Below are positions 5,529 through 38,169 of a stretch of DNA of 41,456 bases, in pieces. The number at the start of each line of letters is the position of its first letter. Position 1 is the first letter of the stretch. The DNA comes from a virus. The notes beneath the pieces are model-generated. The model saw nothing but the letters and a program-made list of their open reading frames with translations, was not told the origin of the DNA and ran no database searches. The position numbers were made by a program, and so were the translations under genes. The DNA is taken from positions 1 to 41,456 of IMG/VR virus record IMGVR_UViG_3300042330_000991; one strand, given 5' to 3'.

Positions 5529-5551
5529 CTATGTCAATAAAAACAATCATT

Positions 5552-5932
5552 ATGAGTAACACTAAAAATGTAGCTGCCGTACCAGGTATGCCCGCTACCG
5601 AACAAAACACAAAACCCGAACTTTCAAAAATTGTAGTTCCTGCAAAAGTTCAATCCCCTTCAAAAAATGTTGATGAAATTAAAAGAAGGGTTGAAGATTA
5701 CACCGCTTTATTAGAAAAACATTCCTTGCTACAGGAGAGTAAGAAAAAGCTTGATTCTTTTTCTTATGGTTCTGATGAACACAGCCAAAATTTAAGGCTA
5801 CAGGATAAAGAAGGGAATAATTTTTCAACTGGTAATCCTGTTGTAGTGCGTGAAGTAATTGAGTTAATTAGAAAACAACTAAACACCCAGTGCGGAGTAG
5901 TTGAAAACGATGTATTAAATTTTATCATCTAA
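5552..5932 (+). CDS. hypothetical accessory-cassette protein (126 aa)
   Basis: Start chosen at 5552 because the promoter start site would fall after the other in-frame ATGs (5516 frame and 5531). The leader TCAATAAAAACAATCATT before it recurs before the next gene and before the 33955 gene. The product has a disordered N-terminus rich in Pro/Lys/Ser, a coiled-coil-like middle (residues about 40-75) and a C-terminal helix; no family is recognised. It is flanked by its own promoter and terminator, the typical layout of a moron. Confidence 0.65.
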   Translation: MSNTKNVAAVPGMPATEQNTKPELSKIVVPAKVQSPSKNVDEIKRRVEDYTALLEKHSLLQESKKKLDSFSYGSDEHSQNLRLQDKEGNNFSTGNPVVVREVIELIRKQLNTQCGVVENDVLNFII

Positions 5933-5935
5933 AGC

Positions 5936-5970
5936 AAAAAGCCCCAACCTATTAAAGGAAGGGGCTTTTT
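5936..5970 (+). terminator. rho-independent terminator
   Basis: AAAAAGCCCC (5936-5945) pairs with GGGGCTTTTT (5961-5970) around a 15-base loop. It closes the first accessory gene. Confidence 0.85.
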
Positions 5971-6018
5971 ATGTTCATTTAAACGTCAATAAAAACAAAC
6001 ATTGTGAAATACAAATAT

Positions 6019-6369
6019 ATGGAAAACCAAGAAATTAAGCAACCTACCAAAAACGAAGCAAGGGAGCAACTAAAAACACTATCAAATCAATTGAAGCCAC
6101 TTGTTAAGGCTGGAGAATTTAACACAGTTAACGAGGCACTTATTGAAGTAGCTTATAAGTCACCCGAGCACCAAGAGTTTAAAAAATTTTGGGACTGGAA
6201 GAAAGAAGGATATACAATTTTAAAAGGTTCAAAAGCTTTCCCAATATGGGCGCAACCCATTAAAGGCAAGAAAAAAGAAGCAATCGAAGAAGGCGCAGAA
6301 TTTGAATTTTTTCCAATCTGTTTTTTATTTTCAAATAGTCAAGTGAGGAGGTTAGAAAATGGTTTATAA
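6019..6369 (+). CDS. ArdC-like ssDNA-binding domain protein (116 aa)
   Basis: The ATG at 6019 is preferred over GTG 6004. The 116-residue protein matches the N-terminal domain of ArdC-type antirestriction proteins: a helical start, then GYTILKGSKAFPIWAQPI and a hydrophobic FFPICFLFSNSQV strand corresponding to the usual 'kG.k...i..p......vFn..Q' region. The metallopeptidase half of full-length ArdC is absent, so it is a stand-alone binding domain. It overlaps the RadC-like gene by 11 bases; the pair is common on Bacteroidetes mobile elements. A role in protecting incoming DNA is family inference. Confidence 0.6.
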   Translation: MENQEIKQPTKNEAREQLKTLSNQLKPLVKAGEFNTVNEALIEVAYKSPEHQEFKKFWDWKKEGYTILKGSKAFPIWAQPIKGKKKEAIEEGAEFEFFPICFLFSNSQVRRLENGL

Positions 6370-10645: not shown

Positions 10646-10653
10646 TGTCCTTT
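10646..10653 (+). repeat. GTCCTTT intergenic repeat, copy 3 (short)
   Basis: TGTCCTTT begins 2 bases after the stop codon of the head-completion gene and continues AATTGG. Only the head of the repeat is conserved here. Confidence 0.5.
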
Positions 10654-10674
10654 AATTGGAGTATATGAGGTAAT

Positions 10675-10722
10675 AAATTTGAACTAACAAATTTGGCAGT
10701 CTTAGGATCAAACATGCCAAAT
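10675..10722 (+). other. overlapping alternative hairpins upstream of tRNA
   Basis: AAATTTG (10675-10681) pairs with CAAATTT (10688-10694), and ATTTGGCA (10691-10698) pairs with TGCCAAAT (10715-10722). The two stems share 10691-10694, so only one can form fully. They lie just before the tRNA and may influence processing. Confidence 0.4.
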
Positions 10723-10728
10723 ATATAT

Positions 10729-10800
10729 CGCAAGATGGAGCAGAGGTAGCTCGCTGGGCTCATAACCCGGAGGTCAGAGGTTCGAATCCTTTTCCTGCAA
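10729..10800 (+). tRNA. tRNA-Met (CAT), initiator type
   Basis: A 72-base cloverleaf: acceptor 10729-10735/10793-10799, D stem GAGC/GCTC, anticodon stem 10754-10758/10766-10770 with CAT at 10761-10763, T arm AGAGG-TTCGAAT-CCTTT, discriminator A at 10800, no encoded CCA. Three initiator marks are present: C1/A72 unpaired, three G:C pairs next to the anticodon loop (GGG/CCC), and a purine-pyrimidine 11:24 pair (A:T). A second mismatch (A5/C68), a wobble at 28:42 and a 7-base D loop make it slightly irregular. It lies between structural genes in the late operon. Confidence 0.85.
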
Positions 10801-10816
10801 CAATATTTTTTATAAA

Positions 10817-16406: not shown

Positions 16407-16638
16407 TGAGGAGTGCCATTCATTGTTGGCTGTAAAGGATTCTACCATCTTGATCCTGGAGAAACATATTGAGGCTAATAATGATATAATCCATATTAAG
16501 AGCATGCAGTTGGTTGATGCTCGCAAAGAAATTGAGGTTCAAAAAAAGGAAATGAAAAAACAAAATCGAAAAATTCTAATTTATAGAGTTGGAATTTCGG
16601 CACTTGCTATCATTACCGTGACCTTAATGTTAATATAA
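16288..16638 (+). CDS. putative spanin partner, nested start in another frame (116 aa)
   Basis: The in-frame TTG/ATG upstream would give an unlikely N-terminus, whereas ATG 16288 starts a clear signal peptide (MKKYLLIACLMIVCSLSYGQ). A coiled-coil-like middle follows and a second hydrophobic helix ends the protein (ILIYRVGISALAIITVTLML), so the product would be periplasmic with a C-terminal membrane anchor. Its first 119 bases lie inside the 16089-16406 gene in another frame. Envelope-bridging (spanin) is the best guess. Confidence 0.6.
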   Translation: MKKYLLIACLMIVCSLSYGQDSKVLTAQESRKILKVMISSEECHSLLAVKDSTILILEKHIEANNDIIHIKSMQLVDARKEIEVQKKEMKKQNRKILIYRVGISALAIITVTLMLI

Positions 16639-16679
16639 ATCCTAGAAATAGGATTTATTATGATGCAGTTGTTTGCATC
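16635..16679 (+). other. tandem hairpins after the lysis genes
   Basis: A perfect 10-bp stem (16635-16644 with 16649-16658) with a GAAA tetraloop overlaps the stop codon of the last lysis gene. A second hairpin, GATGCA/TGCATC (16662-16667, 16674-16679), follows. There is no T-run, so they look like processing or stability structures rather than terminators. Confidence 0.6.
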
Positions 16680-16702
16680 GTTTGTTCTTTGACGTATATT
16701 TG
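16672..16702 (+). promoter_or_regulatory. consensus Bacteroidetes promoter
   Basis: TTTG (16672-16675), 19 bases, TATATTTG (16695-16702): an exact fit to the TTTG / TAnnTTTG promoter. Transcription would begin near 16708, at the base of the next hairpin. Confidence 0.75.
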
Positions 16703-16706
16703 TTCT

Positions 16707-16779
16707 GCACATTTCACTAGGGGTAGCGTGATGTGCTGTTTCATAGGCTAAAGCCCTCATTAATTTGGGGGCTTTTTTT
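16707..16779 (+). ncRNA. candidate small RNA (about 70 nt) or terminated leader
   Basis: From the predicted start the transcript forms a hairpin GCACAT...ATGTGC (16707-16712 with 16731-16736, plus CAC/GTG inside), a short linker, then an intrinsic terminator AAGCCCTC/GGGGGCTT (16751-16758 with 16667+0-16674 equivalent at 16767-16774) with seven T. No open frame of any length is present. Promoter, hairpin and terminator in 110 bp are the layout of a small RNA gene. Alternatively it is a terminated leader for the tail genes that needs antitermination. Confidence 0.6.
16751..16779 (+). terminator. rho-independent terminator before tail genes
   Basis: AAGCCCTC (16751-16758) pairs with GGGGGCTT (16767-16774, one G-T pair) and runs into a T-tract (16773-16779). 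Confidence 0.85.
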
Positions 16780-16780
16780 A

Positions 16781-16816
16781 TGTCCTTTCCATACGCAATT
16801 GCATGGCCGAAATTTG
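16781..16816 (+). repeat. GTCCTTT intergenic repeat, copy 4
   Basis: TGTCCTTTCC, then GCAATTGCATGG and AAATTTG, immediately after the terminator and ending next to the ATG at 16821. The first 22 bases nearly equal those at 1155-1177, and the AAATTTG part equals that of copy 2. Confidence 0.7.
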
Positions 16817-16820
16817 ACCT

Positions 16821-17603
16821 ATGATTGAGCTGCAGTATGGAAAATTAAAAGCTAGCGTGCCCGGTAGTTGGCATGAGCTTAATGCCAAGCAACTGGCTAA
16901 GGCTGTTGATATTCTTAGCCAAGAAAAAAACAGAGTAGATGGCCAATTGGCTTTTATCTATTATTTGTTGCCTCCAAAGTTTAAAAAATTAATGGATAGT
17001 TTTACTGGCTTGGAGCTGGTAACAATTATTGGCCAGTTTGAATTTTTAACCTTTCCTCCCTCCTTCCAAAACTTTTTGTTTACCAAGTTAAAAGCAAATT
17101 GGTTCAGCCTAAGTGCTTACCAGGGCCCAACAAATTCTTTTGAAAATTTAACTGTGCGTGAGTATGGTACCGCAGAATTTTACCTTGGCCAATACAGCCA
17201 CTTGGTTGGGGTTGATGATGTAAAAGCTGAGGAGTGCTTAAACAAATTTTTAGGTTCAATCTATTTTATAAATGACCGCCACCTTGCTTTGAGCAGGGCT
17301 AAGTATGATGCCCATTTAAAGAAAACTGCTTTGATATTGGCGGGTATTCCGCTTGCAAAAAAACAGGCTATTGCTTTTAATTTTACTGCAGTGCGCGATT
17401 TTGTTTTTGCCCAATTTGATGAGGCTTTTAGTAAAAGCGAGGTAAAAAGCAAGCGAGCAAAATACGGATGGGATGGTGTAGTACAGCATATTTCTGCAAC
17501 CAGGCACATGGTACCAGATGCTATTTATAACATGAATTTACTTGAATTTTTAATACAGCTTGATACTATTGCCATAGCTGAAAATGAAAGGGAAACCAAA
17601 TGA
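16821..17603 (+). CDS. hypothetical tail-module protein, possible assembly chaperone (260 aa)
   Basis: A 260-residue helical protein starting the tail block. It is ATGA-coupled to the next gene. Position ahead of large tail genes and the tape measure recalls tail assembly chaperones, although no frameshift signal is evident and the sequence family (YGKLKASVPGSWHELNAKQL N-terminus, FYLGQYSHLVG middle) is not recognised. Confidence 0.65.
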   Translation: MIELQYGKLKASVPGSWHELNAKQLAKAVDILSQEKNRVDGQLAFIYYLLPPKFKKLMDSFTGLELVTIIGQFEFLTFPPSFQNFLFTKLKANWFSLSAYQGPTNSFENLTVREYGTAEFYLGQYSHLVGVDDVKAEECLNKFLGSIYFINDRHLALSRAKYDAHLKKTALILAGIPLAKKQAIAFNFTAVRDFVFAQFDEAFSKSEVKSKRAKYGWDGVVQHISATRHMVPDAIYNMNLLEFLIQLDTIAIAENERETK

Positions 17604-33954: not shown

Positions 33955-34347
33955 ATGAAGTTAAAAACTTACAATTCTGAGAACGCCTCTAGGAGAAGTT
34001 CTGGAAAACCAACAATTGCCTTCTCTTGTAAAAATGGAGTAATGCGCATTAACAAAGTAGCTCAAGAAAAGCTTAAAATTAAAGATGGAGAAAGGTGGAG
34101 CATTAGCCAAGATGAAGAAAATGTAAAAGATTGGTATTTGCACAAAGATCCTGAAGCAGGATTTAAAGTAAGGGTTTCAGATAAAGATGAAGCTACATTT
34201 AACTCTAGTGCAGTGTGCGAAGATGTGCGAGCTTGTGTTAAAAATATTGAAGAGGATAAAACCTGCAAAATGTATTTGATTACTGAGCCAATTATTACCA
34301 AAGACAAAGTTTTACTTTATCCAATTTTAACCTCTTCAGCGCACTAA
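33955..34347 (+). CDS. hypothetical early protein (130 aa)
   Basis: Preceded by the leader TCAATAAAAACCAA (33931-33944), a copy of those before the accessory-cassette genes. The 130-residue product begins basic and has a beta-rich core (IAFSCKNGVMRINKVAQEKL), possibly an AbrB-like or small DNA-binding fold. The gene is one base from the SSB gene. No family named. Confidence 0.6.
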   Translation: MKLKTYNSENASRRSSGKPTIAFSCKNGVMRINKVAQEKLKIKDGERWSISQDEENVKDWYLHKDPEAGFKVRVSDKDEATFNSSAVCEDVRACVKNIEEDKTCKMYLITEPIITKDKVLLYPILTSSAH

Positions 34348-34348
34348 C

Positions 34349-34786
34349 ATGAGACAATTACTATTAATTGGTTACTTGGGGCAGGATGCCAAAGTAAACC
34401 AGTACCAGGGCAAACAAATCATTAACTTTAGCATTGCAGATTCTGAAAAGTACAAAAATGCTGAAGGAGTTGAAGTAACCAAAACCACATGGATTGAATG
34501 TGCTATTTGGAAAGATGCCGGGCAATCAATTGTTATTGCCAATTACCTTAAAAAAGGCACACAAGTAATGGTTCAAGGTGTGCCAGATGTAAGCACATAT
34601 ACCAACAAGGATGGCCGTGTGGTTGCCAAATTTAGTTTGAAGGTTAGCAATTGTCAACTGCTTGGTAATGCAAGCCCTAGGCCTGAACCAAACACCAATG
34701 TAGCCAGTACTGATGCTGTACATAATGCTGAACCTGGATTAGGAACTCCCCCTGCAGCTGGAGGAAGTGATGATTTACCTTTTTAG
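34349..34786 (+). CDS. ssb: single-stranded DNA-binding protein
   Basis: An OB-fold SSB of 145 residues. It starts RQLLLIGYLGQDAKVN and contains FSIADSEKYKN, TTWIECAIWKDAG and YLKKGTQVMVQG, all typical, a disordered linker rich in Pro/Asn/Gly, and the canonical partner-binding tail DDLPF at the C-terminus. Cooperates with the primase-helicase. Confidence 0.92.
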   Translation: MRQLLLIGYLGQDAKVNQYQGKQIINFSIADSEKYKNAEGVEVTKTTWIECAIWKDAGQSIVIANYLKKGTQVMVQGVPDVSTYTNKDGRVVAKFSLKVSNCQLLGNASPRPEPNTNVASTDAVHNAEPGLGTPPAAGGSDDLPF

Positions 34787-34789
34787 GCT

Positions 34790-35014
34790 ATGAAACTTTT
34801 TAAAGAGCAAATTAGAATACCAGACTTTGCATGGCTGTTTAACCGCCGTAAGCAAAGAAAGTTTATTGTGTTGCACAAAAACTTTGCTGGTACGGATAAA
34901 ACCTTTAGGGTGGAGAGTTACTCCATCCTAGAGGTAAACTCCAAAGAGCCTATTAAAATTAACTACGAAACAATGGAAGAGCTAATTGAAACCAAATCAC
35001 TAGAAATATTATGA
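34790..35014 (+). CDS. hypothetical early protein (74 aa)
   Basis: A 74-residue basic protein (FNRRKQRKFIVLHKNF) with beta strands following; ATGA overlap with the next small gene. No family recognised. Confidence 0.6.
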   Translation: MKLFKEQIRIPDFAWLFNRRKQRKFIVLHKNFAGTDKTFRVESYSILEVNSKEPIKINYETMEELIETKSLEIL

Positions 35015-37238: not shown

Positions 37239-37422
37239 TTGGACACTTGGACACGCCACTCTCATTCAGCTACTTACCTTAAAAATCTGTGTCCATCAGC
37301 GTCCATCAGTGTCCATGTTTGTTATAAAACTCTATTTATCAATAAGTTATATTTTTGGATATACTTGGACACTGATGGACACAGCTAAAATGTCAACTTT
37401 CACATTATCAGGCTCGTGTCCA
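37239..37422. repeat. iteron-like GTCCA repeat array
   Basis: TTGGACAC occurs twice in tandem (37239-37254); GTCCATCAG occurs twice at 10-bp spacing (37291, 37301) followed by TGTCCATG; the opposite orientation TGGACACTGATGGACAC is at 37366-37382, a 15-bp inverted match to 37301-37315; a last GTGTCCA is at 37416-37422. Candidate replication origin or control region. Confidence 0.65.
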
Positions 37423-37602: not shown

Positions 37603-38169
37603 ATGCTAGTAAGAATACCCGTTCGTATCCACCTGCTTAAATATTTAAAAGCAAAGGTGGGAGCCGATAAGTTAGAAATTAGGCACTTTAATCAATTGGA
37701 AATGTTCGCAGAGCAGAGCGATATCATTTACATACAGCGCCAACTTTCAAAAACACTTTATCCATTTTTAAATACCGAGCACCAGTGGAGCAGTGATCAA
37801 CTGGGCAACCAAGGTAAGTATGGTATAATTGGGCTCAACCTAAAAGATTATTTAATTGATAGCCGAAGGATTTATATATCCATTCTTGGCGTAATTAAAT
37901 TCAATGATAGCATAGATCAAATTATGCTCAAAGAAATGATATCGCTTTTGGATAAAGCAATTTCGGAAAAGCAACGCCAAGACCATACCATTTTAGAATT
38001 TATGGCAAAGTACCAAATTGATGAGGATGATATCCGTTTTGATAGTTTGAAAAAAAGAGCGTACCGCGAAAGAAAACGTTTGGCCGAAAAATTATTTTTG
38101 GAAAGAAATTTAAAAGGTACAGGGGCGGTGCTTGATTTGTCCTTTAGTGAGAAATTTATTCAGGCTTAA
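37603..38169 (+). CDS. hypothetical protein, first late gene (188 aa)
   Basis: The 188-residue protein begins LVRIPVRIHLLKYLKAKVG, has a mixed middle (LIDSRRIYISILGVIKF), and ends in helices with many basic residues (KKRAYRERKRLAEKLFL) and a GTGAVLDLSF tail. As the first gene after the control region it could be a late transcription regulator, but no domain is recognised. Confidence 0.6.
   Translation: MLVRIPVRIHLLKYLKAKVGADKLEIRHFNQLEMFAEQSDIIYIQRQLSKTLYPFLNTEHQWSSDQLGNQGKYGIIGLNLKDYLIDSRRIYISILGVIKFNDSIDQIMLKEMISLLDKAISEKQRQDHTILEFMAKYQIDEDDIRFDSLKKRAYRERKRLAEKLFLERNLKGTGAVLDLSFSEKFIQA

Follow-up and report, generated by a model that had tools for sequence, protein, structure and literature searches.

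The segment at 16639–16820, which separates the lysis genes from the tail genes in the phage DNA analysed here (the window, i.e., the whole 41,456-nt record), is best explained as a lineage-specific, RNA-only "moron" insert made up of the gene for a free ~73-nt RNA followed by a late promoter, a reading to which we assign a probability of roughly 55%. Morons are extra elements lying between genes and equipped with their own promoter and terminator. In the proposed mechanism, the main RNA polymerase of the host would read the predicted RNA (16707–16779) from a canonical sigma-ABfr promoter and would be stopped by the RNA's own terminator, and a phage late promoter (16782–16816) would then restart transcription, so that the tail-gene mRNA would begin at 16821 without a leader. 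Because the RNA has a host-type promoter, whereas the surrounding genes use the GTCCTTT late type, it would be expected in the prophage also, i.e., both lysogens and lytically infected cells may make it. Features lie on the plus strand unless stated otherwise.

The two ends of the record share a direct repeat of 196 nt (99% identity); for that reason the record most likely represents a complete circular genome of ~41.3 kb. Judging from its integrase and repressor genes, its tape measure gene, and an amidase gene followed by small membrane-protein genes, the virus is a temperate tailed phage. Distant matches of the tape measure protein include Flavobacterium phages (14 of 191 records), and those of the protease and integrase include Porphyromonas and Riemerella phages; from these matches and the promoter evidence presented below, we infer that the host is a member of the Bacteroidota.

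The lysis genes are followed by two hairpins, as the earlier sequence-only reading had stated. The first (16635–16658; 10-bp stem, GAAA loop), located 3' of a spanin-like gene and identified by folding and in the sequence itself, is probably the 3' end of the lysis mRNA; the second (16660–16681; 9-bp stem, TTGT loop) is terminator-like but weak and overlaps the −33 element of the promoter that follows. This promoter consists of a −33 TTTG (16672–16675) and, exactly 19 nt further on, a −7 element TATATTTG (16695–16702) that conforms to the sigma-ABfr consensus TAHHTTTG (PMC6847099). The arrangement TTTG-N19-TATATTTG, described before as an exact promoter at 16672–16702, is indeed exact and occurs once in the genome, with 0.03 occurrences expected per strand. 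Since those −7 elements of F. johnsoniae that are classed as probable promoters are found 4 or 5 nt ahead of the start (PMC6847099), the 5' end is predicted at 16707 (4 nt past the −7 element) or 16708, the first bases of a stem. The candidate RNA would thus begin flush with a 5' hairpin (16707–16736, from folding), continue through a 13-nt single-stranded linker UGUUUCAUAGGCUAAAG (16737–16749), a possible seed, and end in an intrinsic terminator (16750–16779) composed of a stem-loop with a 10-bp stem and a 6-nt loop (16750–16775) and a run of seven T residues reaching 16779. The unit is intergenic, between 16638 and 16821. It had been described as having no open frame; no supported coding frame is found, but a 6-codon plus-strand frame (MCCFIG, 16731–16751) inside the candidate RNA and a 59-codon minus-strand frame (16581–16760) do exist, both without support.

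Folding statistics bear out the hairpin from 16707 and the terminator ending at 16779. The 80-nt segment 16703–16782 folds at −30.1 kcal/mol (z = −5.05), which none of 200 shuffled sequences equalled; the larger segment 16635–16785 gives z = −5.39, and a more moderate value is obtained for the 182-nt gap as a whole (z = −3.1). A strict promoter-terminator layout (−33 TTTG, −7 TAHHTTTG, and, within 35–160 nt, a terminator at −9 kcal/mol or below) is seen once in the genome, whereas 40 simulated genomes contained 0.10 on average. When the −33 element is dropped (loose layout), four units are seen against 0.98 expected in simulated genomes, and such looser units are not remarkable. A sigma-70 scan found nothing unusual at the unit (five sites against 6.2 expected), as it should if the host uses sigma-ABfr. 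It is very unlikely that the elements have merely come together by chance, with zero transcription from 16707: the presence of the element in one genome only would fit this, but the strict-layout count and the fold z-score both speak against it. When promoter-terminator units outside frames were sought in this genome and in the 63 IMG/VR loci introduced below, six rows were obtained, one of them the unit at 16707–16779; the other five lie on the minus strand of this genome, in L048 (by inspection, this one looks like a tRNA), in L021, and, as two overlapping rows, in L056. On the minus strand of this genome, at 5936–6042, TTG-N20-TATATTTG has a strong terminator ~70 nt beyond it, so that this may be a second small RNA.

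The sequence-only reading missed a second promoter, GTCCTTT-N24-TTTG, directly behind the terminator (16782–16816). The ATG of the first tail-block gene (16821–17603) stands 4 nt past its TTTG, so that the predicted start coincides with the A of the ATG and the gene is predicted to be leaderless. All seven GTCCTTT heptamers of the genome (at 1155, 7978, 10647, 16782, 18134, 38139, and 38640) are on the plus strand, at the borders between late-region genes, and all seven have a TTTG at exactly N24, where 0.05 would be expected; at four of the seven, a start codon lies 4 nt past the TTTG. The copy at 10647 precedes a phage tRNA-Met gene (10647–10801). Scanning IMG/VR with a stricter form of the pattern (GTCCTTTCC-N22-TTTG-N4-ATG) retrieved 63 stretches (L011–L073) from 53 contigs, which hold 89 distinct GTCCTTT-N24-TTTG copies, as compared with five or fewer at any one of the other spacings between 5 and 44. 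Thirty-seven of these 89 fall outside the search pattern and hence are independent of the scan. Among the 40 copies outside the pattern when this genome is included, a T precedes GTCC in 90%, an A occupies the position of the host A-11 in 93%, and the two positions that follow seldom carry G; from their sequence, the latter two features are marks of NAHHTTTG, i.e., of a −7 element of the host type that lacks the initial T. A long frame begins 3–4 nt past the TTTG in 18 of 41 copies outside the pattern.

These regularities strongly support the view that GTCCTTT-N24-TTTG is a late promoter class with sigma-ABfr-type marks. Compared with sigma-ABfr promoters (TTTG / TANNTTTG), to which the promoter of the candidate RNA is a full match, the late promoter retains NAHHTTTG, lacks T-12, and carries TGTCCTTTC in the −33 region. 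A large share of the mRNAs made from such promoters should be leaderless; in B. thetaiotaomicron, leaderless mRNAs are rare (~3.7% of 5' UTRs are <10 nt; PMC7366714). Four of five named phages do not contain the signature, and a Porphyromonas gingivalis phage (L078) has one copy, at 34149, in the gap between two annotated genes. No description of the signature was found in the literature searched, a body of work in which subscription journals are mostly outside coverage.

The late promoter also bears on how the upstream transcript should be understood. Either a ~70-nt small RNA or a constitutively terminated leader had been proposed before; the proposed layout and size stand, as does a start near 16707/16708, but the leader option is weakened, because the tail genes appear to possess their own late promoter, separate from that of the candidate RNA, which would make passage through the terminator unnecessary. 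A free ~73-nt RNA is therefore the probable form. For a tail-gene leader or attenuator, in which a transcript from 16707 would stop at 16779 unless an antiterminator or the peptide MCCFIG permits passage, one may cite the succession of promoter, terminator, and tail genes on a single strand, the 6-codon frame that ends at the terminator stem, and the hairpin loop AGGGG-UAGC, which by inspection has short complements (GCUA and CCCU) at the terminator. The separate late promoter behind the terminator, the burial of the MCCFIG start codon in a stem, and the lack of any leader family at gathering score in Rfam (Phe_leader reaches 23.1 bits against 55) nevertheless make this quite unlikely. In the lambda pR'-tR' late leader (6S RNA), the late genes depend on read-through of the terminator; the present locus resembles it in placing a promoter, a short RNA, and a terminator ahead of late genes, and differs from it in that the tail genes are predicted to start from a separate late promoter.

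With the motif in hand, phages with homologs of the tail and head proteins of this genome could be found. In four of them (L020, L023, L034, and L038), a spanin-like gene (a call made by inspection from a lipobox-like start and a hydrophobic C-terminus) precedes the homolog of the 16821 gene with gaps of −4, 3, 3, and 3 nt, respectively, as compared with 182 nt here, and the junction holds neither hairpin nor promoter; in L048, the homolog stands behind a different gene, again with no notable gap. As L023, L034, and L038 are close kin, the empty junction amounts to about two independent lineages. The promoter-terminator unit is absent from this junction in the relatives, and most simply, the lineage of this phage acquired hairpins, RNA unit, and late promoter as an insert, though the relatives may instead have lost it. 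Two features expected of a moron are present: the flanking genes adjoin in relatives that lack the insert (three of the four being close kin), and the locus brings its own promoter and its own terminator. It is like phage morons and prophage accessory loci (PMC7067206) in being an extra element between genes that adjoin in relatives, and unlike them, as they carry a protein gene as a rule, in that the insert is without a protein and its expression in the lysogen is a prediction.

Other searches returned little. Scans of IMG/VR with the products of 16821, 20101, and 18173, the tape measure protein, and the terminase-like gene product gave no relatives, and a scan with the amidase gave eight phages that match, among the proteins queried, only in the amidase and, in four of the eight, the 11107 protein; the tail proteins queried had no match in these eight. 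Genome contigs yielded no match for two protein queries, and named phages none for three proteins of this genome or for two relatives of the last one. The candidate RNA itself has no nucleotide match in the 63 loci, and an exact 20-mer of the hairpin core has none in IMG/VR. A weak Cellulophaga DNA match covers the terminator hairpin alone and was taken as chance. Rfam gave no match to the candidate RNA at gathering score and only a tRNA in the whole genome; the weak matches at the unit were rejected as all far below the cut-off (best, 23.7 bits against 43).

The lack of a homolog in the 63 loci and for the exact 20-mer is one of three observations that agree with a plainer view of the junction, in which the hairpins and the terminator close the lysis mRNA, the late promoter opens the tail mRNA, and the host-type promoter gives a terminated by-product. 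The others are that the terminator adjoins the late promoter and that AT-rich DNA easily yields promoter-like sites, as the excess of loose layouts illustrates. Under this view, however, one would not expect the exact −33 and −7 elements at N19 or a predicted start that coincides with the beginning of the stem, and termination does not require another strong hairpin; we regard it as possible but doubtful, and favor the RNA-only insert.

The candidate RNA has two of the features by which Bacteroidota intergenic small RNAs are recognized, namely, a 3' intrinsic terminator and an intergenic position free of a coding frame; its start is predicted from the −7 element. A canonical promoter precedes 76% of the intergenic sRNAs of B. 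thetaiotaomicron, and a start together with an intrinsic terminator defines the high-confidence set (PMC7366714). Like those sRNAs (e.g., GibS; PMC7366714), the candidate is intergenic, has its own phylum-type promoter and an intrinsic terminator, and is of modest G+C content; unlike them, it is phage-borne and predicted from sequence, and the likeness is one of layout. GibS relies on a PM2 promoter and has its seed toward the 5' end (PMC7366714), whereas the 5' end of the candidate RNA would be a closed stem. In its small size and its suggested silencing of a phage transcript, the candidate resembles the sar RNA of P22, 24B_1, and OOP RNA (PMC12197685); sar and OOP, however, are antisense to the RNAs they target, whereas the target suggested here is 18 kb away and the pairing short and imperfect.

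Base-pairing is the default for such molecules, and the RNA most likely acts in this way through its linker UGUUUCAUAGGCUAAAG. Together with 16750–16753, the linker is complementary at 14 of 15 positions, with a mismatch in the middle, to 34782–34796, a site that takes in the stop codon of the SSB gene and the start codon of ORF 34790–35014. At −18.1 kcal/mol, this is the best plus-strand site of the genome, the next-best start region reaching −11.7 kcal/mol. The value is matched by 0.3–0.5% of shuffled sequences, but 17-mers drawn at random from the genome match it in 3.4% of cases, and the match to ORF 34790 had already appeared when the linker was chosen; for these two reasons the target is a lead only. 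Pairing might conceivably block the ORF 34790 start codon, which is suggestive as a target and no firmer than that.

A 188-residue protein (37603–38169) is encoded just upstream of the first two late promoters, the first of which overlaps the end of its gene. Homologs (26–30% identical) occur in 9 of the 63 motif-bearing loci, and in all nine they lie upstream of a late-promoter pair, as in this genome. No family or solved structure explains the protein, and its predicted structure is poor (mean pLDDT of 61); from its position and company, our guess is that it is a late activator. Seven aligned relatives end in a Q-x-x-L/M/F-F-like tail, which this genome's copy lacks and which resembles a sliding-clamp binding motif. 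A wider scheme, in which the 37603–38169 protein perhaps activates an undescribed late-promoter class and the RNA-only moron escapes this control, being transcribed by host polymerase in the lysogen and silencing ORF 34790, a replication-operon gene behind SSB, until induction, is unlikely as a whole.

Other structured or repeated stretches were noted. A further TATATTTG (779–786) lies behind a terminator (742–775), and from 790 (to 913) an RNA is predicted in which a long stem closes a three-way junction (z = −5.34). The inner GCCAGGG of this RNA has an alternative partner in CCCTGGC, immediately ahead of a run of seven T residues, as in a pseudoknot or switch; L050 has a similar TGCCAGG...CCTGGCA helix before seven T residues at 765–833. 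We do not claim a single family for the 790–913 and 16707–16779 RNAs, which share TATATTTG and AGGG/CCCT pairing only. At 37240–37385, in a 487-nt gap, repeated GTCCATCAGTGTCC / TGGACAC sequences and a 29-nt inverted repeat (37301–37380) together suggest a possible replication origin. A 23-nt repeat (91%) at 5533–5555 and 5985–6007 extends into two apparent start codons.

The earlier observation is sound, and the candidate is, in our view, probably a phage small RNA, although unproven; its kind is known, but its setting is unusual. Very little has been written on small RNAs from phages of Bacteroidota; the string "Bacteroid" is absent from the main text of a review of phage sRNAs (PMC12197685). 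The late-promoter signature, for its part, would make late operons and their start codons readable in many phages of Bacteroidota-type hosts.
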